From the NCBI RefSeq assembly GCF_905475395.1, contig NC_058337.1, forward strand, positions 90,328,368-90,392,367: a DNA stretch of 64,000 bases, read 5' to 3'. The notes beneath the pieces were generated by a model, which did not search any database, had not been told where the DNA came from, and was given only the letters and a program-made list of their open reading frames with translations. Position 1 is the first letter of the stretch. The number at the start of each line of letters is the position of its first letter. Shown here one piece after another: positions 28,732 to 52,900 of the stretch. The translations under genes were made by a program, and so were the position numbers. This DNA is from Chrysoperla carnea. Lineage: Eukaryota > Arthropoda > Insecta > Neuroptera > Chrysopidae.

Positions 28732-29776
28732 TTACCACCCAAATACATATTCCATAGCTTTAGTAACAATCCCAGTTGATTTTTGTGGTACAGGTGATGT
28801 AATTGTTTCTGCTATATTTGAATTACGTTGTTGAGGTGATAAATACGGCTGTGCCAAAGATCGTACAGGTCGTGGAGATGCTGCAAATGTACCATTGTTT
28901 AAATTTGACTCATTTATTGAAACATTTTCTTTATTGCTCAATTCATTTGGTCGATAAGGTAGTACACCAACCATAATTGATCCAGCTAAAATTTTACCAT
29001 TAAACGCTAATGCTTTACTCGCTTCGTAAGGATTTGAGTATTTAATGTGAACCCAATTCCCTTGTGATGGGAATTTTTTTTCAACAATTGTTCCACACTG
29101 TGCAAAATGTGCTAGAATAACATTTGTGGTAGAGCATGGAAAGCCTAAAATTGTTACCCATGTATTATCAGGTGATAATGGATCAATTGGTTGACGATTT
29201 GTTGGTGTCCAATTTGATTGTAAAGTTGAATTTTCATGTTGCACACTCAAACGATTAAAAGGTCGTTTGGGCGTTGATGTTAACTTATCTTCCACAATAT
29301 GGATAGAATTATTTTGAAATGTATCAAAAGTGGTTGCATTTTTAGGCGTGTTTATTGTCGAAGTTTCATTTGGATTGTATTTATACCTACAAAATAAATT
29401 TTTATAAATCGAGTTTTATTTAAATACAAATAAACAATTTACTATACCTAGCTTCCAATGTATCAAACAATCCTTGAACAGGGGGGCCACTTTTCTCATT
29501 CACCTTTTGTTTTGCCATTGCTGGAGACGTTGGATCAGATTGAAAATATCCAGAAGTTTGATGATATGTACTAGGGTATAAAACTCGATCTGGAGTTTCT
29601 GAATTTTTGAATAATCCTCCTCTACTTTTTGTTGGGCTTAATGATCCATGGCGTTGGCTTGGTGAAGTTTGTTGTTCACCCATCAAAAAAGCTGGTAAAA
29701 AAGGTGTATTTGAACTCATGTTTAATGGGTTAGTTTTTGGACTTTGAACGGGACTTCCAAGTGTCATTGGTTCCAT
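28732..29776 (-). CDS. Nup35: Nucleoporin Nup35/Nup53 (2 exons, 327 aa)
   Basis: Nup35 (Nup53) is a scaffold nucleoporin that links the inner ring of the nuclear pore to the membrane. Exon 1 is 29776 down to 29448 and exon 2 is 29386 down to 28732. The joint splits an Arg codon and gives 327 residues, close to the usual length of about 326. The N-terminal half is disordered and rich in Ser/Pro, with SPTKSRGGLF and GPPVQGLFDTLEAR, as typical for the family. The central Nup35-type RRM is clear: TWVTILGFP, then ILAHFAQCGTIVEK, NWVHIKYSNPYEASKAL and GKILAGSIMVGV. The C terminus ends AMEYVFGW, the conserved membrane-binding amphipathic helix. The start is the first ATG. Its 5' end is divergent from the GTSF1-like gene, and its first 64 bp are repeated at 40399-40462. 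Confidence 0.95.
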
Positions 29777-30317
29777 TTCTAAATAAGTAAATAAAATTCT
29801 AAATTTTATATAATCAGAAAATATTATACTTTTGAAACTTACTTTATAATTTGTTTTTTTTTAATATTTGGAGCGAAAATACGAGGTTTTCAAACTGTTG
29901 TTTTAGGAGATTGAATACAAAACGTAAATCAGGCAGACAACTTGAGGAAAATACTTCTGTTACGTTGTCATTGAAAAAAAAACTATTTAAAATATTTTAA
30001 TGAATTTAAATTATTTTTATTAAAGTGTAAAGACTAGGTAAACACATGGCGGTTTTTTTAGTTGTCTTCACTAATCAATCATATATTTTATGTATGTAAT
30101 CAACACTAATTCATCACTACAAATTTAGATTTGCTTCTGTTCCGAGATTTGCTATTACTTTGAAATAATATGAAGGCAGTTGGTAAGATCATTCACCATG
30201 CTAATGTCAAACTTAAAAATATTGTTAAAATTTCAGCGCCGCAGTAGCAGAAAAATAAACCTTTTATCAGGTTATCCAGCGATCATTTCATTTAAAAATA
30301 CGATAACAAAATACTTA

Positions 30318-30655
30318 TTCGCTCCGTGCGTGAGTTTCGTTTCCATGGTAACGATACACTACTTTAATTATAGAATTGTATGGATGCATACATAATTGTA
30401 TGGATTGCATTTAAGACTTACATTTAAAATTTAAATTTATTGTCTCACAAATTTAAATAAATAATTATGATAATTTACATTTGAAAAATAATATTTGTTC
30501 AATTTGATTTCTTATTTTCACAATTTTTAATGCATTAAGTTTAATTAATTCGTGTTTTTCAATAATTTTAATTTGACATTTCTATAACATTAACATGTAA
30601 AAACTTGCAAATTAGTCATAACAGCCCCCTTTAACTCCAAGATTTTTCACTGGCT
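30318..30655 (+). repeat. Dispersed element (same family as 398-790), inserted in unit 1 only
   Basis: Begins TTCGCTCCGTGCGTGAGTTT and ends around CTCCAAGATTTTTCACTGG, without the family's right end. Unit 2 reads straight across this point (about 40965-41010) with different short filler, so the element was gained by unit 1 or lost from unit 2 after duplication. Confidence 0.6.
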
Positions 30656-30799
30656 AGATTTGATAGTAATACCATTGAAAGTGAAATTAAAATTGATTAA
30701 ACAACGAAGAAGTTATACGCAATCAAAGATTGCTTATAACTTTCAAAGTTTGTCCATCTCTTTTTAGCAAAATCAAGTTGTATATATAATCTCTATGGC

Positions 30800-30831
30800 G
30801 ACACCCACGTATGACGTCACTAGTGGGTGTC
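30800..30831. promoter_or_regulatory. CRE-like TGACGTCA inside a perfect 9-bp inverted repeat
   Basis: GACACCCAC at 30800-30808 and GTGGGTGTC at 30823-30831 are exact reverse complements, and the loop between them holds the palindrome TGACGTCA (30812-30819), the consensus site of CREB/ATF-type bZIP factors. It lies about 600 bp upstream of the GTSF1-like start codon. Unit 2 keeps it unchanged at 41148-41179. Confidence 0.4.
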
Positions 30832-31424
30832 CTCTTTGTTTAATTAGAAATTTTAAACGTTCATATTTTGCACGCTAGTAAAGATTTTTAAAAATCAACT
30901 TCACTTTCCTCTCCCCTATTGTTTTCAATCACTTAGACAACCTGATGTGCAGTACAATGTATGTAACGACCGAAGACTAGACTAGTTCAGCCATAGTCGC
31001 TTATTATCCTTCTCAATCTTCTTTGAGAGGTAATTTTCACTATATTGCCATTCTAGTTAGTATATTTTCAAAGGTTCCACTCTGCTGCCAGCCCTGCCAG
31101 TCCCATAGTAAATATTCCAAGATAATTAAATTTATATCTAGTAACATTTGATTAAATCACAGTTGGTACGTTTGTTCGGCAGGTATAAGATATGACATAT
31201 GACCTTTGAAAATTCACTACGATACGACTGTGCTCGAGACTTAGTAACTACTGGACTGAAGTTAAATAAATAATATTATTCATCTAGGTCATCTAGGATA
31301 TTATTGTAACTTGTTTATGGTAGTATTGAAGGTTAGGTATTGACTCAACGAAAAGAGAAATTATATTATTCAATATTGAGAAGTTTAAATATTTAAAAGT
31401 TTGAAAATATTTAATAGTTTGGAA

Positions 31425-34400
31425 ATGAGTAAAATAGTTCCTGCTGTTCACCATGGTAAACAATATACTATTTGTCTAAAAGCCGTATTTTCAATATAAT
31501 TTTATTACAGACAACATTTTATTAATTTTATATACAGACATCATTGTTTTCATTGACACCGTTGTTTGAGTTGCATTTATTTACCGTTATCTACACGTGA
31601 TTCAAGGATCAAAATTTTTTGTATTTTTAAAATCACTGATCATAATATACATACTCTTACAATTAGAGCTATTATTAGGACAGCTCATACCATATACGTA
31701 ATTTAATACACACTTATTTATAACTTAAATGTTAAAGGCACTATAATTTTCTTTTCAGGCCTCGAAGCCAAATTCATTGAATGTCCATATAATAAATCTC
31801 ATCAGATATTACCGGATAGGATGCAAGTACATTTAGTTCGTTGCCGAAGATCCCACCCTGACGAAATGAAGGTTCCATGTCCATTCAATTCAACTCATGT
31901 GGTGGGCCAGTGTGAATTAGAGGTAATCTGCTTTACTCAATTTTCTATATCAAATTACTTAAAATGTCCTTTTGAAAAATATATTTACTAGAAAATATCT
32001 ATCTCCGTTGTATAAACAAACAAAAACTATAGAACATATAATTTATTATTTTATAATATCATTTACAACTCTAATTCGTAAGGCAAGAGTACAAGCCCAT
32101 GCTAAAAATTTTCGAGTATGGAAAAAAACTGAATGTCACGTGTACAAATGGGAAGTTACGGTGAAGTATTTTTGTACGGCTTTCTTCCTTGTGCTAGAAC
32201 CTTATATAAAAATGATGGAAAACCTAGTGCTGTTAAAATATTTTTGTTTCCGTAAATTTCCGAAGCACTACGGGTGATTTTTTTCTGTACGGCTTTTATG
32301 TAATTCGCTTTTAATACTTATGTTGAGTTAGTGTCCAGTAACACCGTACATATTTACTATTGCGGAGATGAGATATCAAAGAGTTTCCCTAAATAGGTTG
32401 GGGTTGTTGATTTGAAGCAACAGAAAATAAAGTAATTTTAAAACTATTTTATGAATAAACAACAGTTTTTGACACGCCGTACATTTTTAGTGGTACATAG
32501 GTGTCTTAGAGGGAAACTACTTTCGCTGAAAAAATAGTACTCATAGTAACCTAGTACTCGATCTAACCCAGTCCGATGTCAAAAAATTATTTTAATTCCA
32601 ATAGCTCATATTCGCGGGTTTTTTTATACACGTTTCTGTGCTTAATATTTTCTTCAATAGTTGCCTGAATATGTGCGGATATTCGACGCTTGATTGATGA
32701 CGAATTGATCGGTAATATGCGAATAATATTGGTTTTGCTGTATCTCGGTTACGAAAATTTAACATTGTGCTCAAAATAGATAGACTAGACTATAATGTAG
32801 AGAGCAATGGTTGTGATTTAAAAGTACTTGTTTTTAAATTTCAGTATCATATTGCAAATTGTCCAGATCAGAAAACATTAGTTAGCCAACTAATCGAATA
32901 CGAATCTGAAGAAAGAATTTTCGAACCTATTCCTATCATAAATACTGATGTGGAATGTTCTGAAAATTGGGATGACGTAAGTATTTTTCAAATGTTAAAA
33001 AATTTTTCAAATGTGTTACACTCGCATTCTGTAACTATTTAATGATTACATTGGGTATCGTTGTCTGTAGAGGCCTAATGTAGACGATAATGGTTGTGAT
33101 AATTGATGTCATGACATCATAATAACCATTACTGTCTAAATTATTTCTCTATTGATAATTGTCAACCTTAAAGTTAAATTGTTACAGTTTACAGAAGGTG
33201 AGTACTGGGGAGTCAGCGTTTCCATCAATTCATAAAGTGTCGTTTTTTAAAAAGTTAAGAAATGTTGTTTTTGAGTAATCGCGATGACAGACGGGCAGAC
33301 AGATGACAGGCAGACAACCGGAAATAGAATAATTAGGTGATTTTATGAACACCTATACCAAAATTTTGTTCATGGTATCAATATTTTTAAGCGGTACAAA
33401 CTTGGGACTAAACTTAATATACCTTCGTATATTTCATATACATGGTATAAAAATTCGTATCATAATATTCATAAATTATTAGTAATGTTCATTTATTATT
33501 TAGGTTAACGTACCAACTTATGATCCCACTGAACATTTAGAAAACAACATCATAATAAGAAATATGCAAGTACGTCCTCCAAGCGAACGTAAGGCGTTCC
33601 GTGAACAAGAAAATAGGCGTATTGAAGCTTTAAAGGATAGAAACAGAGATAATGCTGGTAGAAAAGATAATGCTTCTTCGATGAATGAATCTAAGGTTAA
33701 ATTAAAATTTTTATCAATATAATTAATATTTTATGTTTATAAGTTTTCAATGTCACATAATTTATTTTTAGGTGGCAACGTTTCGTCGTCCGAACACTGT
33801 TTCTGTAACAAAAAAAGCTACAACAGCTGCTAATAATGCTTGGGTAATTTTTTTTTTTCATTTCCTTTAATTTTATTAATAGTTTTGATGTTCAGAAAAA
33901 GGTGCATACAATTTGCTTTTAACACAAAGGAAAGCTGGCTGAATGAATAGGGAACACTCAGTCAATTCTCTATGTCTATACTTTAAACCAAATTATGTGA
34001 AGAAACTATCACTCTTTGGTCTGTCCGACTGGCATAGCCTATTTTTTTCCGAATTTCTTTAACGAAAAAAAGTTGAAATTTGGTACTAGTATAGAGTTTG
34101 ATGATCCAATCACGGTCTTATAGTATAAACAATCGAGTTCTGATTTGGAGTTTTAATTTTGGTGGTTAAGTTAGGAAGTTAGAAATTTAAATGATTTTTT
34201 CCTAAGTTTCTTAATTTTGAAGGTTCCAATTGGGCTTTTTTGGTATGTATAGACAGAAACTCGTAAAATTATGTTAGTAAGCAAACGTGTTCAAGATGTT
34301 AATAAGCAACAAATTTTGTCAAATGTTACACAAATTAAAGCTTGCCATAATTAATAATAAATTTTATTTTTATAGAACGAGGACCATATGAGTCAAACCA

Positions 34401-35088
34401 GTACCGTGCAGACAGCAATAAGGTATGTAGCTAAGAATTTGTATTTATATTTTCATATTCATAATAGAAGTGCAGTCTGGCATGTAAAGGGTGTCATTGA
34501 CTACAATTTCAAGTTTTTCTTTTATCCGGGTGTAGTAACTGAGAATTAAAAAAATTTAAATTAATGTATCATAGAGGGTGCTCATATATCCACACTACGT
34601 AGTACACTTTACAAAAACAATGCTAATTTTTTGTACACCATACACTCCTGTAAAAATGTTCACATCCGTAGGGTACAAGAAATTTATTTAATCTTAATAA
34701 ATATTAAACATTTTAAAATAAAATCCCCGGAGTCTCTCAGATGTTGCATGTTACTACGAAAACTAAAATTTTATGGATAAATTACTGATTAATTTAGCTA
34801 GCCTCTTTGTGATCAATTTATGAAAATTATACTTTATTAGTTTATTCTTAACATTTTTTCGGTTATAGTTAGTTACCAAATATAAATTTACAATAGACTA
34901 TAATATAATCCCTTTTATATTTAATTTTTAGCACTGGATATGATTCTTCCGATGTTGAGGTAACAAGCCAATTTGGTAATATGACTTTAAAGAACACCAA
35001 TGATGGATTTATTACTGTTCCTTCGCGTAAAAAGTCAAATATGGCAGCACGCGGACGTGGTAAAAGGAATCCATTGAATTGCAGTTGA
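31425..35088 (+). CDS. GTSF1: GTSF1/Asterix-like CHHC zinc-finger protein, copy 1 (7 exons, 264 aa)
   Basis: GTSF1 (Asterix in Drosophila) family proteins are PIWI partners needed for piRNA-guided silencing in the germ line. Exons: 31425-31455, 31759-31922, 32845-32976, 33504-33695, 33772-33843, 34376-34422, 34932-35088. Phases all join, with 795 nt in total. Two CHHC fingers are exact C-X5-H-X9-H-X3-C: C19/H25/H35/C39 (CPYNKSH...HLVRC) and C51/H57/H67/C71 (CPFNSTH...HIANC). An acidic Trp motif (ECSENWDD, W107) follows, as in the PIWI-binding tail of the family. The rest is hydrophilic, with a basic end (AARGRGKR). At 264 aa it is longer than the roughly 167 aa I recall for the classical members. 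The start exon is MSKIVPAVHHG, whose phase-1 donor fits exon 2. Second intact copy at 41947-45792. Confidence 0.9.
33210..33452 (+). repeat. Family B repeat in intron 3 of GTSF1-like 1
   Basis: Tail portion of the family: 'aattaggtgattttatgaac', 'gtacaaacttgggactaaac' and a TATATTTCATATACATGGTA end. The matching position in unit 2 (43879-44032) has the same insertion with a short internal deletion, so the insertion predates the duplication. Confidence 0.65.
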
Positions 35089-35119
35089 ATGGAATCAAAA
35101 ATATTGTTATGGTCCATGC

Positions 35120-35125
35120 AATAAA
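35120..35125 (+). terminator. Polyadenylation signal of GTSF1-like 1
   Basis: AATAAA about 31 bases after the TGA stop (35086-35088). The equivalent in unit 2 is at 45824-45829. Confidence 0.55.
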
Positions 35126-35173
35126 CATATGTTAAAGTAATTTTGAAGTTTCCGTCAGATTGGAAACTGATTA

Positions 35174-35283
35174 CAAAAAACCACCCCAACTAGCGCTAAC
35201 TCAACACCTATTAACAAAAACAACTCATTGCGTTATGTTTAGTTGGTCTGGATTGAGTTAGCACGAGTTGCGGTGGTTTTTGA
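35174..35283. repeat. Miniature inverted-repeat element downstream of GTSF1-like 1
   Basis: The left arm CAAAAAACCACCCCAACTAG continues CGCTAACTCAACA. The right arm TTGAGTTAGCACGAGTTG continues CGGTGGTTTTTGA. Arms are about 33 bp and the whole is about 110 bp. A matching copy lies at 45877-45987 in unit 2, so it was present before duplication. Confidence 0.65.
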
Positions 35284-35288
35284 TCATT

Positions 35289-38200
35289 TTTTTTTAAGTC
35301 AAATTTACAATTTTACTAGTCAATTTACAATCTGATAGAAATTTCAATATAACGGTGAAATATATACATCCAATGTATATTTAGTAACTTTCAATTACAG
35401 TGACTGCTAAGCCTTGAAATAGGTGTGATAATAACGCAAATCTGATGCGATGTTAAAATATTTATCAAAAATGATTCACAGAATTAAGATTTGTAACCTT
35501 TAATAACTTAGTCGTGACGCACAGTGTCGTAAAGAATATAATATGAGCAAAATTTCCGAACTCATCAATTCACACAGTATAGAGACAATTTATATGAAGA
35601 AGGCGATATAAAATATACAGCCAGTGTATCTATAGCTATGAAATTTGTTTCACTCATTCTTTAGAAATTCGTAATTATTATTACCCTTGACAATTATGTT
35701 GGCAATTACTTTTATAGCTATTAAATTTTTTAATTGTGGTTACAAAAAAGGATTTGTAAAATTTCAAAGTCAAAGATAAATTTACAGACAATTATTTTCG
35801 TTGCGTTTATACACCATGGACTGACTATTCGTTAAATACAAAACTTACCCTAAACAACAAAATATAATTTTGGTTTTTATTAAAAAAAGAAAAATTTTTT
35901 GTTTTAAAAAGTTGACTTAGTGTAGGCAATTTATAATTCGTGACCCGTCATTTAAAGGCTATCAGAGAAATTACATTTTAATTTTAAATTCATACACACT
36001 AAAATGATTTATTTTAATTAATTACTTATTTTTTGGTCCAAAATAAATATTATAAAATTTGTTAAACTAATAGAAAAATTACTTTTAAAGATGTTACATA
36101 CTTATACCCCCTAAATCTAGAATTTTGCAGGATGGTACACTTGACCTTAATGTGAAAGTTTTTAGGGTTCCGTACCCGGAAGGTAACCAACGGAACTCTA
36201 TTACAAAGTTAAGAATTGTTAATTATTATCACCAGTATTTTCCTTTTTAGATAAACTATGTACATCAAACTAATTTCGCGTTAATAGTTATTTTGTAAGC
36301 ACGTGTATAATTTTATATGCCACTTGTACTATTCTTCGATTCTCAAAGAAATTATATTTGAGTAGAAAACGCAATATCTGCGCTTATATAACAATACCAT
36401 TTAAGTAACATTTGATAAGTTTTCTTCAGGAAAGACAAAAAAAGTGTATATTTCCTTCCAAATTCTTCAGAAATAATAAATCCATTAACGGGTATTTATT
36501 AGCTTTAGCTACGATGTATTCGTTAAAATAAGTGCAATTTTTTGAAGAATTTAAAATGAAACACTTTTTTGGCTTTCCTGAAAACCTGTTCAAATGTTAC
36601 TTGCGCGGTATTGTTATATAAGTGACGGTATCTACAATTAATACAGAATACAGAGTATTCTTTGGTATCTGTAAAATCGATGTATTTCTATTAGCTAGCA
36701 TGTTTTGTACCGTTCTTATAGACCATAAATTCTTAAATGAAATGTTTAGAAATAATATATAAAGGCAAACGATAAACTTAAACTTTAAGTTAGTGAAACT
36801 TTTCTAAGTGATATGTATATATTTCAAAATATTTGTAATTCAAATTTATAAAAGTTATCAAATAAAATTTAAATGTAAGATGAGCAACTTTGATTTATAC
36901 ATCGATGTTTTTTGCCGAATTGAAATATGCAGTATGGGACAAAGTCCTGCAAACCATTACAAATTCTTTATTCATGTAATGGTTCTAAGCAAAATTTCTT
37001 ATATGGGTCAACATCCCAAATACCATTGTACAGTCGGTTATCTAATTGTAAATGATCAAGATAATACTATATAAATGTTTATGAGACGTTTGGCATTTAT
37101 TATTTATATATTAATGAGCGTGTGTAGCACGTTTGTCTTTTTTAGATTTAGTTCACCTGTACATTATCTTTCTCTTTTTTACTATAGAATTATAATAGGT
37201 GCTAAATTCACAGGAAGAGCGACTATAATCTTTTTAAACTAAACAATACCAATGCCATAATAAACTGAAATTGATTCTTGAGTTACTTGAAAAATTTAAG
37301 TTGCTCATCTAAATTTTAAATGATATTGAATATTAAAATTTTATAATTTTTTACTTGTATAAAGATAATAAAAGTACGTGCACACTATAACCAAAGTTTT
37401 TCTAGCCATTGTGTACAAATATCTCAAGAATAAAATAAATATATTTTCTCATACAATCATTTTTTTTGTCGAATATGTTAATATTTTCAAACTACTGAAT
37501 GGCCTTCGAATAATTTTTGAAGAATGCGTTTTATTTGTGCCCATGCCAAAACTCAATTCAAATGAAAAGTCGTTGAAAATTTGAAACTGGTGTCGTAACT
37601 ACTTATAGTTCAGTAATGGCTTGTTCTAAAAATGTTTCTACATTTTATGGACATGACAGTTTTTTTTTTTATTTACAGGGATCGTTTTGCCAAAGCCTTG
37701 ATTTTTTTTAAAACAAAATAATTTTTTTAATCAGAAAATTTGATTCATGAAGTCATAGTGGAGGTGATATTTCGTTACCATAGTCTGAAAAAAAAAAAAA
37801 TCATGCACGGTGCGGATAGATATTTTCACTGTAAAGAAGGATTTGGTTTTTTTGACAGACTTTTAAAAACAACACTAGCAAAAAAATGCAAAATATTTTT
37901 TGTCTGACAAAAATTTTGTGATATTTTGCATTTAATGCAAAAAAACCACAACTTTCTATCATGTATTGAAGAAGAGAGAGTATTTTTGTGATTGTTCTCA
38001 CCATTTTCGGAGAGTTGTTTGTTAAAAAGTATTTTGATTTCTGCCTTCATATCAAACTTAAATATTGTCGAATAAAATGAACGCGCATCCTTCTAGGGCT
38101 ATTACAGAAAGAAAGGAGGATACTTAAGGGATTGTTTTTCCTATTTTCAGGATTTCATCATTATTGAATAGTGTTGTATTTTATAATTTCTCAGTATAGA

Positions 38201-38443
38201 AAGTTATTGTAATGGGTTCGATTTTCGAAATCGAAATTTTCAACATATCTTTACTTTTCATGGTCAGGACAAGGCATTAACACCAATTTGAAGAACTATG
38301 TGTGCGTGTACGTATGCATATACGTTCATGGTCATTTTTTCCGTAATCGATATCGTGCGAAAAAAAAATGATATCGACTTCGTTATGGTGTCGATCGAAG
38401 CGTATTAACGACAATTTGGTCCAAAAAGCATTTTATAATATTC
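35289..38443. other. Non-coding downstream part of duplication unit 1
   Basis: Apart from the small ORF at 36880-37074, no gene is supported. A repeat fragment with 'agggttccgtacccgg' lies near 36165-36181. A dispersed repeat (copy 2 of the family at 60-360) lies at 38190-38443. The rest is AT-rich and matches 45993-49086 of unit 2. Confidence 0.5.
36880..37074 (+). CDS. Possible small ORF, 64 aa (unit 1 copy)
   Basis: ATG to TAA, beginning MSNFDLYIDVFCRIEICSMG. It has an imperfect internal repeat of about 24 residues (ICSMGQSPANHYKF and ISYMGQHPKYHCTV). A TATA-like TATATAAA lies at 36756-36763, with a TTAGT initiator-like site near 36790. Against it: the three differences from the unit 2 copy all change the protein, and I recognise no family. 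It may be chance or a relic. Confidence 0.22.
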   Translation: MSNFDLYIDVFCRIEICSMGQSPANHYKFFIHVMVLSKISYMGQHPKYHCTVGYLIVNDQDNTI

Positions 38444-38660
38444 TGTTGCTGGTTTGGTGTAATTAGAAACAAATCAAGATTTTTATTAATTATTATATTA
38501 AATTTATTTTATTAAAGTACATTTAGCCGCTTGTTCATAAATTCGACTTCGCTTGTATAATGAATGATGAATACTGACTGTTTGATGCTTAGATACTGAC
38601 TGAGAACAAGTTCTAATCAACTTCGTTCCCACTGAGCTTAGTTGGCGTGTGTGTCAGATG

Positions 38661-39690
38661 TCATATTACTGGAGTAAATCTAAGCAAAAAAAGGCTGTTA
38701 TATGGATTAAAAGTTCGAGCAGCGAAACTTTGGGGTTTTTCTTTTCACATCAAAATAAGTATTTTTTGAAATTTTTTACTTTCCCGGAGTGGTGCAACAT
38801 GTTTAAAAAACAAAATGGCGTCAAAAATAAAATTTTTTTCAGAAATTTTATCATTTTTATTTTCTATTCGCAAAAGGAGACATCGGTGCATATCCAAATT
38901 TGGTAGGTTTGTAGTCCATGTTAAGAACTACTCCTCATAATTTTTTGGTGGGGTTTCGCCCCTTCCCCTCCCAGTTATATATATATGTATACATACATAT
39001 GGTAAAACAGTTCATTTGACTATAACTTGAAAAATATTCGATTGATTTTAATGAAACTAATACCAATAGTAGGTTTTATTACTTACAACTTTCGGTTAAA
39101 ATTTCAGCGAAATCCGTTAAATAGTTCGGCCAAAATTTCCAATTTAGGGAATTGTTTAAAATGGCTGCCATTTTATGCCATTTTGTCCTACGAGGTTGAA
39201 TTTTTTTTTAAATTGTAGAATTTTTTGTTATCTTTCGATTTTATAATAAGTGGCTTACCCGTAAAATGACTCCTTGATCCATATTTTTGCGAAAAACGGA
39301 AAATTTATCACTTTCTGGAAATAATTGTTTGGGGGGTGTATGGACTGGCTTTGGGGGGTGTTTTTTGTTTTGTCATGAGAAAACTATTTTTAAAAGAGGT
39401 CTATATGGTTTAAAGCAAAATTTTTAAGTTTTAACCCCCGCGCTGTAAGGGGGAAGGGGTGTATGAAATAGATGTATCTTAAAAGATTTTAAAAAGAGGT
39501 CAAAATAGTTTAAAATGCTAAAGTAACCCAAAACTTTAGATGCTTTTATTAATATAGCACTTGTTGCACCACTCCGGGAAAGTAAAAAATTTCAAAAAAT
39601 ACTTATTTTGATGTGAAAAGAAAAACCCCAAAGTTTCATTGCTCGAACTTTTAATCCATACACAAGGCGTAATTTCACTCTACTACAATG
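38661..39690. repeat. Foldback element, about 1 kb, in unit 1 only
   Basis: Arms of about 130 bp at 38661-38800 and 39556-39690 are reverse complements (TATGGATTAAAAGTTCGAGC versus GCTCGAACTTTTAATCCATA; CTTTCCCGGAGTGGTGCAAC versus TTGCACCACTCCGGGAAAG). The unit 2 counterpart (49087-49293) lacks it and carries other sequence. The interior has no long ORF. Confidence 0.6.
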
Positions 39691-39946
39691 TCACCACCGC
39701 CAATGTGGTTTAGATTTAATTGAGAAAAAAATCGTTCATTATTTATGTATTCGGCAGGTTAGCATGTTTGACAAATACGAATTGAAAGCTTTTATTTTTA
39801 AAATAAAAATCCATAATTTCGATACTTTTCTAAAATGAACGTAGTTTGGTGTAAAAATTAGATAAAAAATAGGTTACATATCTAGGTATAAAACCTAATT
39901 TTTAAATATATCAGTCGATATTAATTATTTTGTCCATTGTATTTAA

Positions 39947-40398
39947 CTAGAGTGATACCCACCCGCTTCGCTTGGCTTAAAAGGAAAGATTGATAAAGAT
40001 TGCTCCCGCTTATCCCTTTTCTATAACACTCGAAATAATGGTGGGGTTTATTTTACAGAGGTAAAATATATATTTTTTTAAATGTATAATAGTCGTAATT
40101 ATTTATTGAGTATATCAGAAAAGATGGCCTTGAAATATTTTATATTCACTATTTTTACAGAAATCTGTAATTTACGGTAATTTCACATGTCAAATTAAAT
40201 TTTTTTATTTATTTAATATATCTTTATAAATTATAGTTCATGTGTTATTCTGATATATCAGCTATATTGCTGTAGAGTTTCATTAAAAACCATTCGCTAA
40301 TTTTAGCAGGTTCTTTTTTGTTATACCACGTTTTATAGTGACTGACGTTTCATGTCACGTCACACGGGAATGCTGTCGAACGGGATAAAAAGAATCCT
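39947..40398. mobile_element. Repeat-derived spacer at the duplication junction
   Basis: Fills the gap between unit 1 and unit 2 and has no counterpart after unit 2. It starts CTAGAGTGATACCCACCCGC followed by 'ttcgcttggc', the reverse of a common interspersed-element end. It later contains a sequence related to one arm of the foldback at 58072-58449 (TTCATTAAAAACCATTCGCT). It reads as one or two nested interspersed elements. Confidence 0.5.
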
Positions 40399-40462
40399 AA
40401 CTCATGTTTAATGTGTTAGTTTTTGGACTTTGAACGGGACTTCCAAGTGTCATTGGTTCCAT
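40399..40462 (-). pseudogene. Truncated duplicate of the Nup35 5' end
   Basis: Repeats the first 21 codons of Nup35 (from MEPMTLGSPV) plus its upstream region, then stops at the duplication breakpoint. One codon differs (Pro to Thr). Without the RRM and the C-terminal helix it cannot make a nucleoporin, but its promoter is duplicated and may still fire. Confidence 0.85.
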
Positions 40463-41147
40463 TTCTAAATAAGTAAATAAAATTCTAAATTGTATATAAT
40501 CAGAAAATATTATACTTTTGAAACTTACTTTATAATTTGTTTTTTTAAATATTTGGAGCGAAAATACGTGGTTTTCAAACTGTTGTTTTAGGAGATTGAA
40601 TACAAAACGTAAATCAGGCAGACAATTCGAGGAAAATACTTCTGTTACGTTGTCATTGAAAAAAAAAAAAACTATTTAAAATATTTTAATGAATTTAAAT
40701 TATTTTTATTAAAGTGTCAAGACTAGGTAAACACATGGCGGTTTTTTTAGTTGTCTTGAAACTAATCAATCATATATTTTATGTATTTAATTAACACTAA
40801 TTCATCACTACAAATTTAGATTTGCTTCTGTTCCGAGATTTGCTATTGCTTTGAAATAATATGAAGACAGTTGGTAAGATCATTCACCATGCTAATGTCA
40901 AACTTAAAAATATTCAGGTTATCCAGCGATCATTTCATTTAAAAATGCGATAACAAAATACTTATAGTAGAAAGGGCCATATTACCCATAAAAATGTAAC
41001 GCTAGATTTTATAGTAATAGCATTGAAAGTGAAATTAAAATTGATTAAACAACGAAGAAGTTATACGCAGTCAAAGATTGCTTATAACTTTCAAAGTTTG
41101 TCCATCTCTTTTTAGCAAAATCAAGTTGTATATATAATCTCTATGGC

Positions 41148-41179
41148 GACACCCACGTATGACGTCACTAGTGGGTGTC
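41148..41179. promoter_or_regulatory. CRE-like hairpin, unit 2 copy
   Basis: Identical to 30800-30831: GACACCCAC and GTGGGTGTC flank TGACGTCA (41160-41167). About 770 bp upstream of the GTSF1-like 2 start codon. Confidence 0.4.
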
Positions 41180-41539
41180 CTCTTTGTTTAATTAGAAATT
41201 TTAAACGTTCATATTTTGCACGCTAGTAAAGATTTTTAAAAAACAAATTCACTTTCCTCTCCCCTATTGTTTTCAATCACTTAGACAGCCTGATGTGCAG
41301 TACAATGTATGTAACGACCGAAGACTAGACTAGTTCAGCCATAGGCGCTCCTTCTCAATCTTCTTTGAGAGGTAATTTTCACTATATTGCCATTCAAGTT
41401 AGTATATTTTCAAAGGTTCCACTCTGCTGCCAGCCCTGCCAGTCCCATAGTAAATATTCCAAGATAATTAAATTTATATCTAGTAACATTTGATTAAATC
41501 ACAGTTGGTACGTTTGTTCGGCAGGTATAAGATATGACC

Positions 41540-41727
41540 AAAGTTGTCAACTTAGTAGTTTTACCACTAAAATTAGTGGTTTTTTCTACTATTTTTCTAC
41601 CTTTCGTGGGCAAATAATTTAATATTTTAATATCATTTCTGGCAATATTATTGCTCTCTAGTTGTTTTTAGTGGTTTTCTATCTCCTGTTTAGTGGGCCT
41701 TAGAGTTGAAAGTTGGCAACACTGGAA
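41540..41727. mobile_element. 188-bp insertion with ATGACC direct repeats, unit 2 only
   Basis: Bounded by ATGACC at 41534-41539 and 41728-41733. The ends AAGTTGTCAAC and GTTGGCAACACT are imperfect inverted repeats. No coding capacity. The matching site in unit 1 (31191-31204) reads TATGACATATGACC, which still has two TATGAC copies, as an excision footprint would. Confidence 0.65.
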
Positions 41728-41946
41728 ATGACCTTTGAAAATTCACTACGATATGACTGTGCTCGAGTCTTAGTAACTATTGGACTGAAGTTAAATGAGT
41801 TAAATAAATAATATTATTCATCTTATTGTAACTTGTTTATGGTAGTATTGAAGGTTAGGTATTGACTCAACAAAAAGAGAAATTATATTATTCAATATTG
41901 AGAAGTTTAAATATTTAAAAGTTTGAAAATATTTAATAGTTTGGAA

Positions 41947-44900
41947 ATGAGTAAAATAGTTCCTGCTGTTCACCATGGTAAACAATATACTATTTGTCTA
42001 AAAGCAGTATTTTCAATATAATTTTATTACAGACAACATTTTATTAATTTTATATACAGACATTGTTTTCATTGACACCGTTGTTTGAGTTGCATTTATT
42101 TACCGTTATCTACACGTGATTCAAGGATCAAAATTTTTTGGTATTTTAATATCACTGATCATAATATACATACTCTTACAATTAGAGCTATTATTAGGAC
42201 AGCTCATACCATATACGTAATTTAATACACACTTATTTATAACTTAAATGTTAAAGGCACTATAATTTTCTTTTCAGGCCTCGAAGCCAAACTTATTGAA
42301 TGTCCATATGATAAATCTCATCCGATATTACCGGATAGGATGCAAGTACATTTAGTTCGTTGCCGAAGATCCCACCCTGACGAGATGAAGGTTCCATGTC
42401 CATTCAATTCAACTCATGTGGTGGGACAGTGTGAATTAGAGGTAATCTGCTTTACTCAATTTTCTATATCAAATTACTTATAATGTCCTTTTGAAAAATA
42501 TATTTACTAGAAAATATCTATCTCCGTTGTATAAACAAACAAAAACTATAGAATGTATAATTTATTATTTTTTAATATCATTTGCAACTCTAATTCGTAA
42601 GACAAGAGTACAGGCCCATGCTAAAAATTTTCGAGTATGGAATAACGTTGAAAAGGATGCTCTTATATGTAAAAGTAAGTTTAAGGTCAGTATTGCGCGG
42701 TACAGGTGAGTACAGGTGAAAAACTGAATGTCACGTGTACAAATGGGAAGTTACGGTGAAGTATTTTTGTACGGCTTTCTTCCTTGTGCTAGAACCTTAT
42801 ATAAAAATGATGGAAAACCTAGTGCTGTTAAAATATTTTTGTTTCCGTAAATTTCCGAAGCACTACGGGTGATTTTTTTCTGTACGGCTTTTATGTAATT
42901 CGCTTTTAATACTTATGTTGAGTTAGTGTCCAGTAACGCCGTACATATTTACTATTGCGGAGATGAGATATCAAAGAGTTTAACTCCTTTCCCTAAATAG
43001 GTTGGGGTTGTTGATTTGAAGCAACAGAAAATAAAGTAATTTTAAAACTATTTTATGAATAAACAACAGTTTTTGACGCGCCGTACATTTTTAGTGGTAC
43101 ATAGGTGTCTTAGAGGGAAACTACTTTCGCTGAAAAAATAGTACTCATAGTAACCCAGTACTCGATCTAACCCAGTCCGATGTCAAAAAATTATTTTAAT
43201 TCCAATAGCTCATATTCGCGTGTTTTTTTATACACGTTTCTGTGCTTAGTATTTTCTTCAATAGTTGCCTGAATATGTGCGGATATTCGACGCTTGATTA
43301 ATGACGAATTGATCGGTAATTTGCGAATAATATTGGTTTTGCTGTATCTCGGTTACGAAAATTTAACATTGTGCTCAAAATAGATAGACTAGACTATAAT
43401 GTAGAGAGCAATGGTTGTGATTTAAAAGTACTTGTTTTTAAATTTCAGTATCATATTGCAAATTGTCCAGATCAGAAAACATTAGTTAGCCAACTAATCG
43501 AATACGAATCTGAAGAAAGAATTTTCGAACCTATTCCTATCATAAATACTGATGTGGAATGTTCTGAAAATTGGGATGACGTAAGTATTTTTCAAATGTT
43601 TAAAAATTTTTCAAATGTGTTATACTCGCATTCTGTAACTATTTAATGATTACATTGGGTATCGTTGTCTGTAGAGGCCTAATGTAGACGGTAATGGTTG
43701 TGATAATTGATGTCATGACATCATAATAACCATTACTGTCTAAATTATTTCTCTACTGATAATTGTCAACCTTAAAGTTAAATTGTTACAGTTTACAGAA
43801 GGTGAGTACTGGGGAGTCAGCGTTTCCATCAATTCATAAAGTGTCGTTTTTTAAAGAGTTAAGAAATGTTGTTTTTGAGTAATCGCGATGACAGACGAAC
43901 AGACAGACGACAGGCAGACAACCGGAAATAGAATAATTAGGTGATTTTGTGAACACCTATACCAAAATTTTGGGACAAACTTGGGACTAAACTTAATATA
44001 CCTTCGTATATTTCATATACATGGTATAAAAATTCGTATCATAATATTCATAAATTAGTAATGTTCATTTATTATTTAGGTTAACGTGCCAACTTATGAT
44101 CCCACTGAACATTTAGAAAACAACGTAATAATAAGAAATATGCAAGTACGTCCTCCAAGTGAACGTAAGGCGTTTCGCGCACAAGAATATAGGCGTATTG
44201 AAGCTTTAAAGGATAGAAACAGAGATAATGCTGGTAGAAAAGATAATGTTTCTTCGATGAATGAATCTAAGGTTAAATTAATATTTTTATCAATATAATT
44301 AATATTTTATGTTTATAAGTTTTCAATGTCACATAATTTATTTTTAGGTGGCAACGTTTCGTCGTCCGAACACTGTTTCTGTAACAAAAAAAGCTACAAC
44401 AGCTGCTAATAATGCTTGGGTAATTTTTTTTTTCATTTCCTTTAATTTTATTAATAGTTTTGATGTTTAGAAAAAGGTGCATACAATTCGCTTTTAACAC
44501 AAAGGAAAGCTGGCTTGAAACCAAAGACAAAACTGAGCAATACCTATACAAAATTGACCGCTCTGTAGAAAGAGACAAAGCGACTGTGCGCTAATACCTG
44601 CCTCTTTTCTATGGATCTGTAGAAATACTCTAGAAACTATTTACTTTATAGCTGAATAGGGAACATTCAGTCAATTCTCTATGTCTATACTTTAAACCAA
44701 ATTATGTGAAGAAAATATCACTCTTTGGCCTGTCCGACTGGCATAGCCTATTTTTTTCCGAATTTCCTTAACGAAAAAAAGTTAAAATTTGGTACTTGTA
44801 TAGAGTTTGATGATCCAATCACGGTCTTATAGTATAAAAAATCGAGTTCTGATTTGGGGGTTAAGTTAGGTAGTTAAAAATTTAAATGATTTTTTCCTAA

Positions 44901-45792
44901 GTTTCTTAATTTTGAAGGTTCCAATTAGGCTTTTTTGGTATGTATAGACAGAAACCCGTAGAATTCTGTTAGTAAGCAAACGTGTTAAAAATGTTAATAA
45001 GCAACAAATTTTGTCAAATGTTGCACAAATTAAAGCTTGCCATAATTAATAATAAATTTTATTTTTGTAGAACGAGGACCATATGAGTCAAACCAGTACC
45101 GTGCAGACAGCAATAAGGTATGTAGCTAAGAATTTGTATTTATATTTTCATATTCATAATAGAAGTGCAGTCTGGCATGTAAAGGGTGTCATTGACTACA
45201 ATTTTAAGTTTTTTCTTTTATCCGGGTGTAGTAACTGAGAATAAAAAAAATGTAAATTAATGTATCATAGAGGGTGCTCATATATCCACACTACGTAGTA
45301 CACTTTACAAAAACAATGCTAATTTTTTGTACACCATACACTCCTGTAAAAATGTTCACATCCGTAGGGTACAAGAAATTTATTTAATCTTAATAAATAT
45401 TGAAACATTTTAAAATAAAATCCCCGGAGTCTCTCAGATGTTGCATGTTACTACGAAAACTAAATTTTTATGGATAAATTACTGATTAATTTAGCTAGCC
45501 TCTTTGTGATCAATTTATGAAAATTATACATTATTAGTTTATTCTTAACATTTTTTCGGTTATAGTTAGTTACCAAATATATATAATCTTTAGTATTTAA
45601 TTTTTAGTATATTTTTTATAGTATTTAATTTTTAGCACTGGATATGACTCTTCCGATGTTGAAGTAACAAGCCAATTTGGTAATATGACTTTAAAGAACA
45701 CCAATGATGGATTTATTACTGTCCGTTCGCGTAAAAAGTCAAATATGGCAGCACGCGGACGTGGTAAAAGGAATCCATTGAATTGCAGTTGA
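41947..45792 (+). CDS. GTSF1: GTSF1/Asterix-like CHHC zinc-finger protein, copy 2 (7 exons, 264 aa)
   Basis: Second intact copy of the gene at 31425-35088, in the same orientation. Exons: 41947-41977, 42278-42441, 43449-43580, 44080-44271, 44348-44419, 45071-45117, 45636-45792 (795 nt, TGA stop). All splice sites, both CHHC fingers and the W107 motif are kept. Eight residues differ from copy 1: F16L, N22D, Q26P, I125V, E143A, N146Y, A166V and P243R. Nine synonymous codons differ. Exons 1, 3, 5 and 6 are identical at the DNA level. The family role is PIWI cofactor in piRNA silencing. Whether the copies differ in expression or partner is not visible here. An assembly duplicate is unlikely, since the units carry different insertions. 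Confidence 0.9.
43879..44032 (+). repeat. Family B repeat in intron 3 of GTSF1-like 2
   Basis: Orthologous to the insertion at 33210-33452 but missing about 30 bp in the middle ('ccaaaattttgggacaaact' joins the two sides). Confidence 0.6.
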
Positions 45793-45823
45793 ATGGAATA
45801 AAAAATATTGTTATGGTCCATGT

Positions 45824-45829
45824 AATAAA
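45824..45829 (+). terminator. Polyadenylation signal of GTSF1-like 2
   Basis: AATAAA about 31 bases after the TGA stop (45790-45792), at the same place as in copy 1. A second AATAAA lies only a few bases after the stop (about 45797). Confidence 0.5.
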
Positions 45830-45876
45830 CATATGTTAACGTAATTTTGAAGTTTCCGTCAGATTGTAAACTGATT

Positions 45877-45987
45877 ACAAAAAACTACCCCAACTAGCGC
45901 TAACTCAACACATATTAACAAAAACAACTCATTGCGTTATGTTTAGTTGGTCTGGGTTGAGTTAGCACGAGTTGTGGTGGTTTTTGA
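45877..45987. repeat. Miniature inverted-repeat element downstream of GTSF1-like 2
   Basis: Counterpart of 35174-35283. The arms are CAAAAAACTACCCCAACTAG and 'agttgtggtggtttttg'. Confidence 0.6.
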
Positions 45988-45992
45988 CCCTT

Positions 45993-48900
45993 TTTTTGTA
46001 AAGTTAAATTTACAATTTTACTAGTCAATTTACAATCTGGTAGAAATTTCAATATTACGATGAAATATATATCCAATGCATATTTAGTAACTTTCTGTTA
46101 CAGTGACTGCTAAGCCTTGAAATAGGTGTGATAATAACGCAAATCTGATGCGATGTTAAAATATTTATCAAAAATGATTCACAGAATTAAGATTTGTAAC
46201 CTTTAATAACTTAGCCGTGACGCGCAGTGTCGTAAATAATATAATATGAGCAAAATTTCCGAACTCATCAATTCACACAGTATAGAGACAATTTATATGT
46301 AGAAGGCGATATAAAATATACAGGCAGTGTATCTACACCTATGAAATTTGTTACACTCATTCTTTAGAAATTCGTAATTATTCTTACCCTTGACACTGTT
46401 GGCAATTGCTTTTATAGCTATTAAATTTTTTAATTGTGGTTACAAAAAAGGTTTTGTAAAATTTAGTCAAAGATAAATTTACAGATAATTATTCTCGTTG
46501 CGTTTATACACCATGGACTGACTATTCGCTGAAATACAAAACTTACCCTAAACAAAAACCTATAACTTTGGTTTTTATTAAAAAAAGAAAAATTTTTTTG
46601 TTTTAAAAATTTGACTTAGTGTATGCAATTTATAATTCTAGCCCGTCATTAAAAAGCTATCAGAGAAATTACCTTTTAATTTTAAATCCATACACGCTAA
46701 AATGATTTATTTTAATTAATTACTTATTTTTTGGTCCAAAATAAATATTACAAAATTTGTTAAACTAATAGAAAAATTACTTTTATAGATGTTACATGCT
46801 TATACCTCCTAAATCTAAAATTTTGCAGGATGATACTCTTGACCTTAATGTGAAAGTTTTTAGGGTTCCGTACCCGGAAGGTAACCAACGGAACTCTATT
46901 ACAAAGTTAAGAATTGTTAATTATTATCACCAGTATTTTCCTTTTTAGATAAACTATGTACATTAAACTAATTTCGCGTTAATAGTTATTTTGTAAGCAC
47001 GTGTATAATTTTATATGCCACTTGTACTATTCTTCAATTCTCCAAGAAATTATATTTGAGTAGAAAACGCAATATATGCGCTTATATAACAATACCATTT
47101 AAGTAACATTTGATAAATTTTCTTTAGGAAAGACTAAAAAGTGTATATTTCTTTCCAAATTCTTTAGAAATAATAAATCCATTAACGGGTATTTATTAGC
47201 TTTAGCTACGATGTATTCGTTAAAATAAGTGCAATTTTTTGAAGAATTTAAAATGAAACACTTTTTTCACTTTCCTGAAAACCTGTTCAAATGTTACTTG
47301 CGCGGTATTGTTATATAAGTGACGGTATCCACAATTAATACAGAATACAGAGTATTCTTTGGTATCTGTAAAATCGATGTATTTCTATTAGCTAGCATGT
47401 TTTGTACCGTTCTTATAGACCATAAATTCTTAAATGAAATGTTTAGAAATAATATATAAAGGCAAACGATAAACTTAAACTTTAAGTTAGTGAAACTTTT
47501 CTAAGTGATATGTATATATTTCAAAATATTTTTAATTCAAATTTATAAAAGTTATCAAATAAAATTTAAATGTAAGATGAGCAACTTTGATTTATACATC
47601 GATGTTTTTTGCCGAATTGAAATATGCAGTATGGGACAAAGTCCTGCAAACCATTACAAATTCTTTATTCATGTAATGATTCTAAGCAAAATTTCTTATA
47701 TTGGTCAACATCCCAAATACCATTGTACAGTCGGTTATCTAATTGTAAATGATCAAGATTATACTATATAAATGTTTATGAGACGTTTGGCATTTATTAT
47801 TTATATATTAATGAGCGTGTGTAGCACGTTTGTCTTTTTTAGATTTAGCTCACCTATACATTATCTTTATCTTTTTTACTATAGAATTATAATAGGTGCT
47901 AAATTCACAGGAAGAGCGACTATAATCTTTTTAAACTGAACAATACCAATGCCATAATAAACTGAACTTGATTCTTGAGTTACTTGAAAAATTTAAGTTG
48001 CTCATCTAAATTTTAAATGATATTGAATATTAAAATTTTATAATTTTTTACTTGTATAAAAATAATAAAAGTACGTGCACACTATAACCAAAGGTTTTTC
48101 TAGCCATTGTGTACAAATATCTTAAGAATAAAATAAAAATATTTTCTTATAAAATCATTTTTTTGTCGAACCTGTTAATATTTTCAAACTACTGAATGGC
48201 CCTCGAATAATTTTTGAAGAAAGCGTTTTATTTGTGCCCATGCCAAAACTCAATTCAAATGAAAAGTCGTTGAAAATTTGAAACTGGTGTCGTAACTACT
48301 TATAGTTCAGTAATGGCTTGTTCTAAAAATGTTTCTACATTTTATGGACATGGCAGTTTTTTCTTTATTTACTTTATCAGAAAATTTGATTCATGAAGTC
48401 ATAGTGAAAGTGATATTTCGTTACCATAGTCTGAAAAAAAAAAATCATGCACGGTGCGGATAGATATTTTCACTGTAAAGAAGGATTTGGTTTTTTTGAC
48501 AGACTTATAAAAACAACACTAGCAAAAAAATGCAAAATATTTTTTGTCTGACAAAAATTTTGTGATATTTTGCATTTAATGCAAAAAAACCACAGCTTTC
48601 TATCATGTATTGAAGAAGAGAGAGTATTTTTGTGATTGTTCTCACCATTTTCGGAGAGTTGTTTGTTAAAAAGTATTTTGATTTCTGCCTTCATATCAAA
48701 CTTAAATATTGTCGAATAAAATAAACGCGCATCCTTCTAGGGCTATTACAGAAAGAAAGGAGGATACTTCAGGGATTGTTTTTCCTATTTTCAGGATTTC
48801 ATCATTATTGAATAGTGCTGTATTTTGTAATTTCTCAGTATAGAAAGTTATTGTAATGGGTTCGATTTTCGAAATCAAAATTTTCAACATATCTTTACTT

Positions 48901-49704
48901 TTCATGGTCAGGACAAGGCATTAACACCAATTTGAAGAACTATGTGTGCGTGTACGTATGCATATACGTTCATGGTCATTTTTTCCGTAATCGATATCGT
49001 GCGAAAAAAAATGATATCGACTTCGTTATGGTGTCGATCGAAGCGTATTAACGACAATATGGTCCAAAAAGCATTTTATAATATTCGGTCGAGCCGAGCG
49101 AATTTTGAATTATTTTTTATAATTATTTATTATGCTGGGAAGTTATTCGTGTGGACCTCAAGGATCACACCAGACCTTACCCATGGCTTGTAGTTTTTCC
49201 TTCTACAAATAAAAAGGTATACTTTTGTATAAATTCAAATTATACTGAATTATTTTACCAGTTATCATGAGATTGGTATACAATCTAATAAATCAATGTC
49301 ACCACCGCCAATGTGGTTTAGATTTAATTGAGAAAAAAAATTTTGAAGTCATCAGGTTTAAAATAAATTTTTATTTTTAATCATAGTAAAAAAAGAAGAA
49401 TAAATTACAATATCTACAAAATTACAAATAACTTTTGTGAATTCATTATATATAGGTATGGATTTTCTAAATTCGTTCATTATTTATGTATTCGGTAGGT
49501 TAGCATGTTTGACAAATACGAATTGAAAGCTTTTATTTTTAAAATAAAAATCCATAATTTCGATACTTTTCTAAAATGAACGTATTTTGGTGTAAAAATT
49601 AGATAAAAAATAGGTTACATATCTAGGTATAAAACCTAATTTTTACATCTATTTATCAGTCGATATTAATTATTTTAGCCATTATATTTAATTTAATTAA
49701 ATCA
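45993..49704. other. Non-coding downstream part of unit 2
   Basis: Matches the unit 1 downstream region. No gene is supported apart from the doubtful small ORF at 47577-47771. It includes the third copy (48830-49200) of the repeat at 60-360, here extending further into 'gaagttattcgtgtggacct'. Confidence 0.5.
47577..47771 (+). CDS. Possible small ORF, 64 aa (unit 2 copy)
   Basis: Copy of the ORF at 36880-37074, also open from ATG to TAA, with its TATA-like and TTAGT elements preserved. It differs by Val to Ile, Met to Ile and Asn to Tyr, with no silent changes. I cannot name a function. Confidence 0.22.
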   Translation: MSNFDLYIDVFCRIEICSMGQSPANHYKFFIHVMILSKISYIGQHPKYHCTVGYLIVNDQDYTI

Positions 49705-49957: not shown

Positions 49958-52900
49958 TTAGTTTTTAACAACTTTTTCAACTTGTGGCGAAGATTTGGCA
50001 TCCATTTGTTTTTGAGCTAAATACCTAGCAAATTCGAAGGCAGGAACATTTGAATTTTCTTGTGAGGAGTCTGATTGTTTGTTTGTTTCAGGTAACAATT
50101 CTGGTTCAATATTTTCGGCATTTGGCCCAGATTTACGTAATTTATTATTTTGTGTTGCTAATTGTCTTAATAATATTGGAGCTCCAAACACTTGTCGTGA
50201 TTGATAATTTAATTTAAATGGAATTGTAGTGTCTTCCAATTGTGATTGTTCTTTTTGAGTTTTCTTGCTATCTTTGAGATTTTCGTTTTTTGTTTCTTGA
50301 TAATGTGATTCAACTTGTTGTAAATTTTGTTTACTTTCAAGTTGTGGTTGTAAAAATTCATTGCTTTGTTTGAATTCATTTTGTAAAATTAAGAAAGGTT
50401 CTTGTTGTTGTTGCTGCAAAAGTGCACGATTTGATCCCATTTCATTTGGATTAAAAGTTTCAACGTCTTTTGAGTTTTGCCGTGAATCAAATTCTAACGG
50501 ATTTCCAGGTGCGAAGAATTGTGGTGGAAATTGAAATGGTTGTGATGAGTACATGTAGAGTGGTTGCCCGTTTAATACAAAAAATCTTTGCCCGGGTTGT
50601 ACAGCTGGAACTTGTGTGAGAAATCTATTTTCTGGTAAATTTGAATTTTTATCAGCTGCCGCTAAGACATCTTGTTCACCAGCAGTATTTGGTTTATCTG
50701 GATTTTCTAATTTTGCCGAATTTTCTTGATTTTCTCTATTTTCATCTTTTTGTAGTTTTTCAGGTTTCTGGTTGTTATTTATAGTTTCTGAAATTTAAAA
50801 GAATTGAACATTAATTCTTGGCCCTCGTAAAACGTCCAATTGTTTTCGTATTGAAATAAATCGGAAATCCAATGAATTGTATCAGAAATTCAGTTTCCGA
50901 TTTTATCCTTTTCAAACCTTTTCATTATTTTGAATAGAAGACATAAAATTTTAATATCCTATTTATGAATGGGTTGGAATAATTATGGAGGCAAAGGTAT
51001 TCAACACGACTAAATTTCCGATTGATTGGAAAAGGAATTCATCGTAATTTATTTTCTAATGTAAATAGTTTTACCTGGTATCAGTTCTGCGTCTTCTGGA
51101 GTAGGTCTAGCAGCCGGACTACCAGGTTGAGTTGCAGATCCTCCGCCATTTCCAAATACATTAAAATTGAATGGAACTAATGGTGCCCCACCTGGGAAGA
51201 ATTGTCCATTTGATTGTGGAAATAATATTGGATTTTGAGGTTGTGGGCGCACGTTTGATATTAGTACTGTATCTGGATCTGGTTGAAATCCATTTCCATT
51301 ACCAGGAGGTCTTGGTATAAATACTGCATTTGGATTTAATGTCGGTCGAACATTTACACTTGGTACTATTTCATTGTAATTAGGTGTTTGAGCCCCCGAT
51401 GGAATTGGAATATTATTTGGATAAATATAAAATCTTAAAAACAAAAATAAATCTTTTAAACGTGATAATCCAGAAAGTATTGGTTTATTCAGCTATTCAC
51501 TCTGGATATCGAATGTACAGGGTGCCACAAATTGAAATAGTTCGACAGGAATGCCAATGGTCGTTTAGAAACGTAGATCATTTAGAACAGATAATAAGGG
51601 AAACAGTTCAAGAAATCACTCGCGAGATATGTAGGAGTGTATTTAAACTATTTTTTAAAAGATCAATTACATGTATGGAACGCGAAGGTGGTTACGTTGA
51701 GGCAAAACGAACTAAATGTTGTTCCATACATGTAATTGTTGAATTCTTTAAATACACTCCTACATATCTCGGGAGTGATTTCTTGAACCGTTTCCCTTAT
51801 TATCTGTTCTAAATGACCTGCATTTCTAAACGACCATTTACAATCCTGACGAACTTTTTCAATTAGTGAAATCCTGTACATATTCGATGTCAAGAGTGAA
51901 TAGCTGAATGGTAATATTTTCGAAAGCAGAGATTTTTATAAATAGTAATTTTTTTCGTAAACCTTATAAAAAAAATAGGTTTTCCATATGTAGCTAACTT
52001 AACTTAGGCATGTGTAGCCTAAATATTCACGCTGGGAGAAAAGTCAAAGTGGTGTACCTACTTCTTTTTTGTGCATAATTTTATGATATTATTTTTTTAC
52101 AAAGGCTGAAATTGTGAAAAGGGTAATGGTCTAGTTTCCCTGTGAAATGTGAAAGCCTATAAACGTGTGCATTTTGAGTAGCTTTTAGGAATACCACACC
52201 CTTATAAAAATGGGGGATGTCATATAATATTGAAGCCTATCACATTATTCGTCGAATCCTAAAGTACAGTTTAATAGAAAGATTTGCATCTAATTTTATG
52301 ATAAATATACGTCTAGAAATTCATGTATATTCGTCTCCAAAGATTTTCGCAAGTGAGACGCTCTTTATCATGGAACCTGAAAGTGATGGATTCCGCTTTT
52401 TATGACATTCCTTCAAGAAAGAGATAATCGAATAATAAATGCAAAAATCATCTACAAGATACCTTAGAAATTGTAATTTTAAGAATTCGAAAAAAAAATT
52501 AAAAATAATTTTTTCACTTGTTTGAAGATCTCTTCCTGTTAGAACGACAAAAAAGAATGTCCAATAATTTTAAGCTTGCAATTAAAAATTTTCAAAGCCC
52601 CGTGAAAGAGATTGCCTCACTCTTAAGAATTATCTTAGAGAAAAATATTGGTCGAAGCACAATTAAGCTACACCAGAACTTATAAAAGGGTATTTATCAA
52701 CGGCATTGATTGTATGCTTACCAGCACCGTGACTATAGCGAGAAAATAAGATTAGAAACGGATAATGTTATAAAATAATATTGCATATATGGTACTAAAA
52801 TATAGTAGGTACTATATTATAAAAAAAACTTGAACATTTCTAGAAAATGTAATTTGTCTACAACTCATAATAAATATGATTATAATTGATTAATACGAAC

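Follow-up and report, generated by a model that had tools for sequence, protein, structure and literature searches.

A young tandem pair of GTSF1/Asterix-like genes in the green lacewing Chrysoperla carnea

Two GTSF1-like genes in a duplicated segment

The window analyzed here is a stretch of 64,000 nucleotides from the green lacewing Chrysoperla carnea (C1:90328368-90392367); genome searches covered 559,487,470 bases in 337 contigs. The window contains two genes of the GTSF1/Asterix family, cofactors of the PIWI-interacting RNA (piRNA) pathway, each within one of two collinear direct repeats of about 10 kb. The repeats were delimited by a BLAST search of the window against itself and by alignment of the two units.

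29713..39946, + strand: duplicated unit, copy A (self BLAST pieces; alignment)
40399..49691, + strand: duplicated unit, copy B (self BLAST pieces; alignment)
31425..35088, + strand: GTSF1 copy A, 264 amino acids; exons 31425-31455, 31759-31922, 32845-32976, 33504-33695, 33772-33843, 34376-34422, 34932-35088; PF05253 twice
41947..45792, + strand: GTSF1 copy B, 264 amino acids; exons 41947-41977, 42278-42441, 43449-43580, 44080-44271, 44348-44419, 45071-45117, 45636-45792; PF05253 twice

The two units were matched in seven BLAST pieces with identities of 95.1-98.1%. Introns and flanks are common to both, and the unit is present twice in the same orientation, as is characteristic of a recent tandem duplication. 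A query of 2562 bases taken downstream of gene A, in the 3' portion of the unit, had two full-length matches among the best 40 of 359 candidates, namely itself (100%) and copy B (96%). A third copy of the unit was not found among these 40, the other matches being short dispersed repeats of at most 85% identity.

An earlier note, made from the sequence of the window, had described two intact 264-residue genes of seven exons each, equally oriented and separated by 10.5 kb, with both CHHC fingers and the tryptophan motif kept and with nine silent and eight coding differences. The corrected, spliced gene models agree with this description throughout. Both have full reading frames and a coding sequence of 795 bp, identical exon lengths (31, 164, 132, 192, 72, 47 and 157 bp), and GT/AG borders at all six introns. 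The start codons (31425 in A, 41947 in B) are separated by 10,522 bp. Nineteen coding bases differ, affecting nine codons silently and eight with an amino acid change (F16L, N22D, Q26P, I125V, E143A, N146Y, A166V and P243R), and the proteins are identical at 256 of 264 residues.

The Pfam family zf-U11-48K (PF05253) matched two stretches in each protein (E-values 3e-18 and 7.5e-16). Two tandem CHHC fingers, C19-H25-H35-C39 and C51-H57-H67-C71, could be read from both sequences, and Trp107 (within an ENWDD motif) and Trp197 are retained in A and B. Among proteins of solved structure, only two distinct sequences matched at E-values up to 1. The best was the GTSF1 chain of entry 9nhb (79.2 bits, E = 3.5e-21), which aligned over lacewing residues 15-144 with ENWDD on ENWDD; the second was mouse GTSF1 (6x46; 63.8 bits, E = 1.7e-16). 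Entry 9nhb is also listed for Siwi, and from this sharing of entries we infer that its GTSF1 chain is the silkworm protein. NCBIfam, a prokaryote library, contained no match for GTSF1, and a paper on a PIWI-GTSF1 structure was not found in the literature searched. The sequence comparisons support the assignment of the pair to the GTSF1/Asterix genes, and to the type that partners Siwi.

Mouse GTSF1 binds PIWI via central tryptophans, of which three are named (W98, W107, W112) as against one in the lacewing pair (W107), and it no longer speeds up cleavage when four basic residues are mutated (PMC9385479; papers are cited by PubMed Central number, each for a part of its text). Three of the four basic residues of mouse finger 1 (R26, R29, K36, K39) have basic counterparts in the lacewing (R31, R38, R41), with L28 in place of R26, and this is the same in both copies. 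None of the eight differences between A and B falls on a zinc ligand, on a basic position involved in RNA binding in the mouse, or in ENWDD. Residues 16, 22 and 26 are in finger 1 or next to it and are not conserved among lacewing, 9nhb and mouse. Q26P adjoins the zinc ligand H25, and E143A and N146Y cluster in exon 4. Codons 141-146 contain four of the changes between the copies.

Breakpoints, junction and flanks of the duplicated unit

The ends of the units and the elements within them are described by the following features.

29420..29776, - strand: first coding open reading frame of a divergent Nup35 gene (list of open reading frames; no Pfam match on this frame)
28732-29295: RRM open reading frame of Nup35 (PF05172, E = 2.5e-26)
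40399..40462, - strand: truncated copy of the first coding exon of Nup35, with which copy B starts on the left (29705-29900 aligned to the sequence from 40391)
39946..40307, unstranded: dispersed repeat 1 of the junction (39 other matches over most of its length at 88-92%, plus one short, among the best 40 of 3155 candidates)
40311..40398, unstranded: dispersed repeat 2 of the junction, ending about at the start of copy B (39 other matches at 93-99%, among the best 40 of 134 candidates)
30316..30651, unstranded: short repeat element upstream of the gene, in copy A only (at least 39 other matches at 96-98%; the alignment shows no counterpart in B)
41539..41725, unstranded: short element in copy B only, located some 220 bp before the start codon (at least 39 other nearly full-length matches at 89-96%, plus one short; alignment)
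38663..39660, unstranded: transposon-like element with terminal inverted repeats in copy A only (B has only 0.38 kb at the matching place)

The left end of the unit lies inside the first coding exon of Nup35, whose two open reading frames probably belong to one gene. Since the unit starts within this exon, the upstream region is present in copy B too, along with a truncated end of Nup35 on the opposite strand. The earlier note had described the gene as duplicated with its promoter; this holds in the sense that 1.7 kb of upstream sequence, back into the first exon of Nup35, is duplicated, and in that sense only. The junction was also considered as unique filler, which the two dispersed repeat families present there rule out.

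At 31190-31203, the site in copy A that corresponds to the element at 41539-41725 in B, a tandem 7-bp repeat is present (ATATGACATATGAC), and in B the element is bordered by GATATGAC and GAAATGAC. The tandem repeat in A and the flanked element in B fit an insertion that would predate the duplication and would later have been excised from A, leaving a footprint.

The same observations bear on whether two haplotypes of one gene might have been assembled in tandem. The copies differ by about 3%, and the haplotypes of a heterozygous insect might differ by not much less than that. Errors of this kind did occur in the draft, since 6 haplotypic duplications were removed from the source assembly, inChrCarn1.1; the same assembly, on the other hand, has a contig N50 of 67.8 Mb and a BUSCO duplicated score of 0.9% (PMC10116181). 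The junction falls within an exon of Nup35 and is occupied by dispersed repeats, and the outer flanks of the two units differ. There is no N in the 64,000 nucleotides of the window, which rules out an artefact at a scaffold gap. The tandem duplication therefore looks real, and we consider a haplotype artefact very improbable.

Elsewhere in the window, + strand frames with CFAP65/CFAP47-like domains lie beyond Nup35 (11328-22241), and a cluster of related repeats of several hundred bp each, in both orientations, occupies 14500-15940. Long palindromic stretches at 51487-51909, 54165-54627 and 58069-58451 match their own reverse complements at 82-95% and resemble foldback elements. The open frames 23649-24599 (+) and 49958-50554 (-, glutamine-rich) had no Pfam match listed at E-values up to 5.

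Divergence between the copies and their retention

The aligned units differ at 245 of 8263 sites (2.97%), and the introns of the two genes at 74 of 2823 (2.6%). Intronic identity had been taken to indicate a young event, and we see it in the same way, with young as a relative term. The substitution rate in other insects is about 3e-9 per site per generation; at this rate, 2.6% would correspond to 4-5 million generations, as an order of magnitude only.

Nonsynonymous differences were found at a proportion pN of 0.0128 (8.0 of 626.8 sites) and synonymous differences at a proportion pS of 0.0666 (11.0 of 165.2 sites), giving a pN/pS ratio of 0.19 (Fisher p = 0.0004). The coding sequence also contains none of the 33 insertion or deletion events between the units (3.1-3.5 expected, p = 0.03-0.05). 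Judged by these numbers, both copies look as if they were held by purifying selection, less clearly so when measured against introns.

Some results weigh against two maintained copies and would suit a redundant copy that is decaying but still unbroken. Nonsynonymous divergence is 0.49-fold that of introns (p = 0.058), so that constraint appears stronger or weaker with the choice of reference. The probability of meeting no stop codon among 19 random changes is 0.45, and intact frames alone are thus weak evidence; the pair is also young. The low pN/pS and the location of all 33 indel events outside the coding sequence speak against decay, which we regard as quite improbable.

The pN/pS comparison of copies A and B gave no support for positive selection overall. 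Exons 2 and 4 are more divergent than introns 1-4 (15/356 versus 30/1797 sites, p = 0.007), a contrast that was chosen post hoc and in which silent sites are in excess too. Silent coding sites as a whole diverge more than introns (11/165 versus 74/2823, p = 0.006).

Divergence is uneven along the unit. The variance among 400-site windows was 34, compared with 11 after permutation (none of 2000 permutations was as high), where the first windows of the scan partly reflect poor alignment through a repeat. The longest identical run between the units is 279 sites (p = 0.047). Tracts of gene conversion, or mutation at uneven rates, could explain this pattern.

Genome-wide, only one further GTSF gene was found in addition to the pair, both in a PF05253 search (all 28 candidates scored) and in a protein search (all 12 scored). 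It lies on another chromosome, C5, at about 21,531,688-21,532,002, and encodes 104 amino acids in an intronless coding sequence, with a short tail ending in GWN. The C5 protein is closer to mouse GTSF1 (59.7 bits) than to the 9nhb chain (47.7 bits), and silkworm Gtsf1-like is likewise closer to mouse GTSF1 (PMC9385479). The lacewing gene resembles Gtsf1L in this preference.

A search for Piwi domains gave 19 matches, 18 of which belong to six loci, with the remaining one in an open frame of 72 residues on C6. A Siwi-type PIWI was found at a single locus, C5:49.85 Mb, which scored 291 bits to Siwi and 228 to the next. A second close locus was not found with the stretch of this gene; the next loci, at 48% and 45%, were the two genes at C5:19.58 Mb and C6:32.36 Mb. 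Each has one large open frame (890 and 906 codons), the two share 57% identity, and C6 is likely the X chromosome. We provisionally call both Ago3-like, and comparison with solved structures covered the C6 copy only, which scored 462 bits to Siwi and 636 bits to the best PIWI proteins. The remaining three loci presumably represent Ago1 and two Ago2-type genes, as judged by eye only; the latter are similar genes on different chromosomes (C3:60.79 Mb and C5:64.82 Mb).

The earlier note had proposed that the copies could be specialized by tissue, sex or PIWI partner, and relatives offer models for this. Silkworm Gtsf1L binds Ago3 (PMC10711660), in the mouse GTSF1L and GTSF2 potentiate MIWI and have little effect on MILI (PMC9385479), and an asterix duplicate in Drosophila pseudoobscura is strongly male-biased (PMC6505081). 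Within the lacewing, element insertions distinguish the upstream regions of A and B, three of the eight amino acid changes lie in or beside zinc finger 1, and two Ago3-like genes are present, one of them on the likely X. However, only one Siwi-type locus was found, a separate Gtsf1L-like gene already exists on C5, the zinc ligands, mouse basic positions and ENWDD are all unchanged between copies, and pN/pS is low (0.19). Two cofactors of the Siwi-partner type would face one Siwi-type PIWI, and with a Gtsf1L-like gene already present, partner specialization is less likely than dosage or a divergence in expression. A caveat to this argument is that six-frame searches score the best candidates only, so that an additional PIWI gene may have been overlooked. 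On balance, we hold specialization to be unlikely, although not far-fetched. A more elaborate version, in which the copies would be beginning to divide labor by sex or tissue, tuned by the finger-1 changes N22D and Q26P and by the exon-4 cluster E143A and N146Y in a pathway whose pair of Ago3-like genes has diverged and includes one on the likely X, appears improbable.

We find it rather likely that a tandem duplication of about 10 kb was followed by the keeping of both copies, most probably for dosage, through divergence in expression or owing to mere youth, and not for separate PIWI partners. The segment, with the Gtsf1/Asterix gene and its upstream region, would have been copied in a green lacewing lineage with its left breakpoint in the first coding exon of Nup35, and the junction would since have come to be filled by the two dispersed repeats. 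Both copies encode full proteins, and each product may act as a cofactor with tandem CHHC fingers whose central tryptophan motif binds a Siwi-type PIWI loaded with piRNA. The first zinc finger would bind RNA, and the cofactor would speed target cleavage or silencing.

Comparison with known GTSF duplications

A report of this duplication was not found in the literature searched on GTSF1 paralogues and on the Chrysoperla/Neuroptera piRNA pathway, a body of partly accessible texts that leaves most subscription papers outside. In other insects, duplication in this family is an ordinary kind of event, given the precedents of silkworm Gtsf1L, the Drosophila GTSF paralogues and the D. pseudoobscura asterix duplicate. 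Drosophila has four GTSF paralogues, of which Asterix alone seems critical (PMC9539491), and the reference list of PMC10711660 includes a paper on the activation of different PIWI proteins by the two paralogues of the silkworm.

The closest counterpart of the lacewing proteins is presumably silkworm BmGtsf1, the partner of Siwi, with which they share the two CHHC fingers and ENWDD over residues 15-144. In contrast to BmGtsf1, the lacewing protein is longer (264 versus 149 amino acids in the solved chain) and is encoded by two tandem copies. Silkworm Gtsf1L, the partner of Ago3, belongs to the same family and is similar in build to the C5 gene, with its 104 residues, intronless coding sequence and GWN tail (PMC10711660), whereas the pair in the window is not of the Gtsf1L type. 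The asterix duplicate of the obscura group likewise represents a recent duplication of this gene family in an insect. The D. pseudoobscura copy, however, is intronless, moved from the X to an autosome and is male-biased (PMC6505081), while the lacewing copy arose at the DNA level, in tandem and with all introns.

The lacewing pair adds a new instance to this known type of event: the observation is correct, and the interpretation is plausible. The pair joins the known insect duplications of piRNA-pathway cofactors as a case caught at an early stage, with 256 of 264 residues still in common, and would allow asking which diverges first, expression or partner choice.

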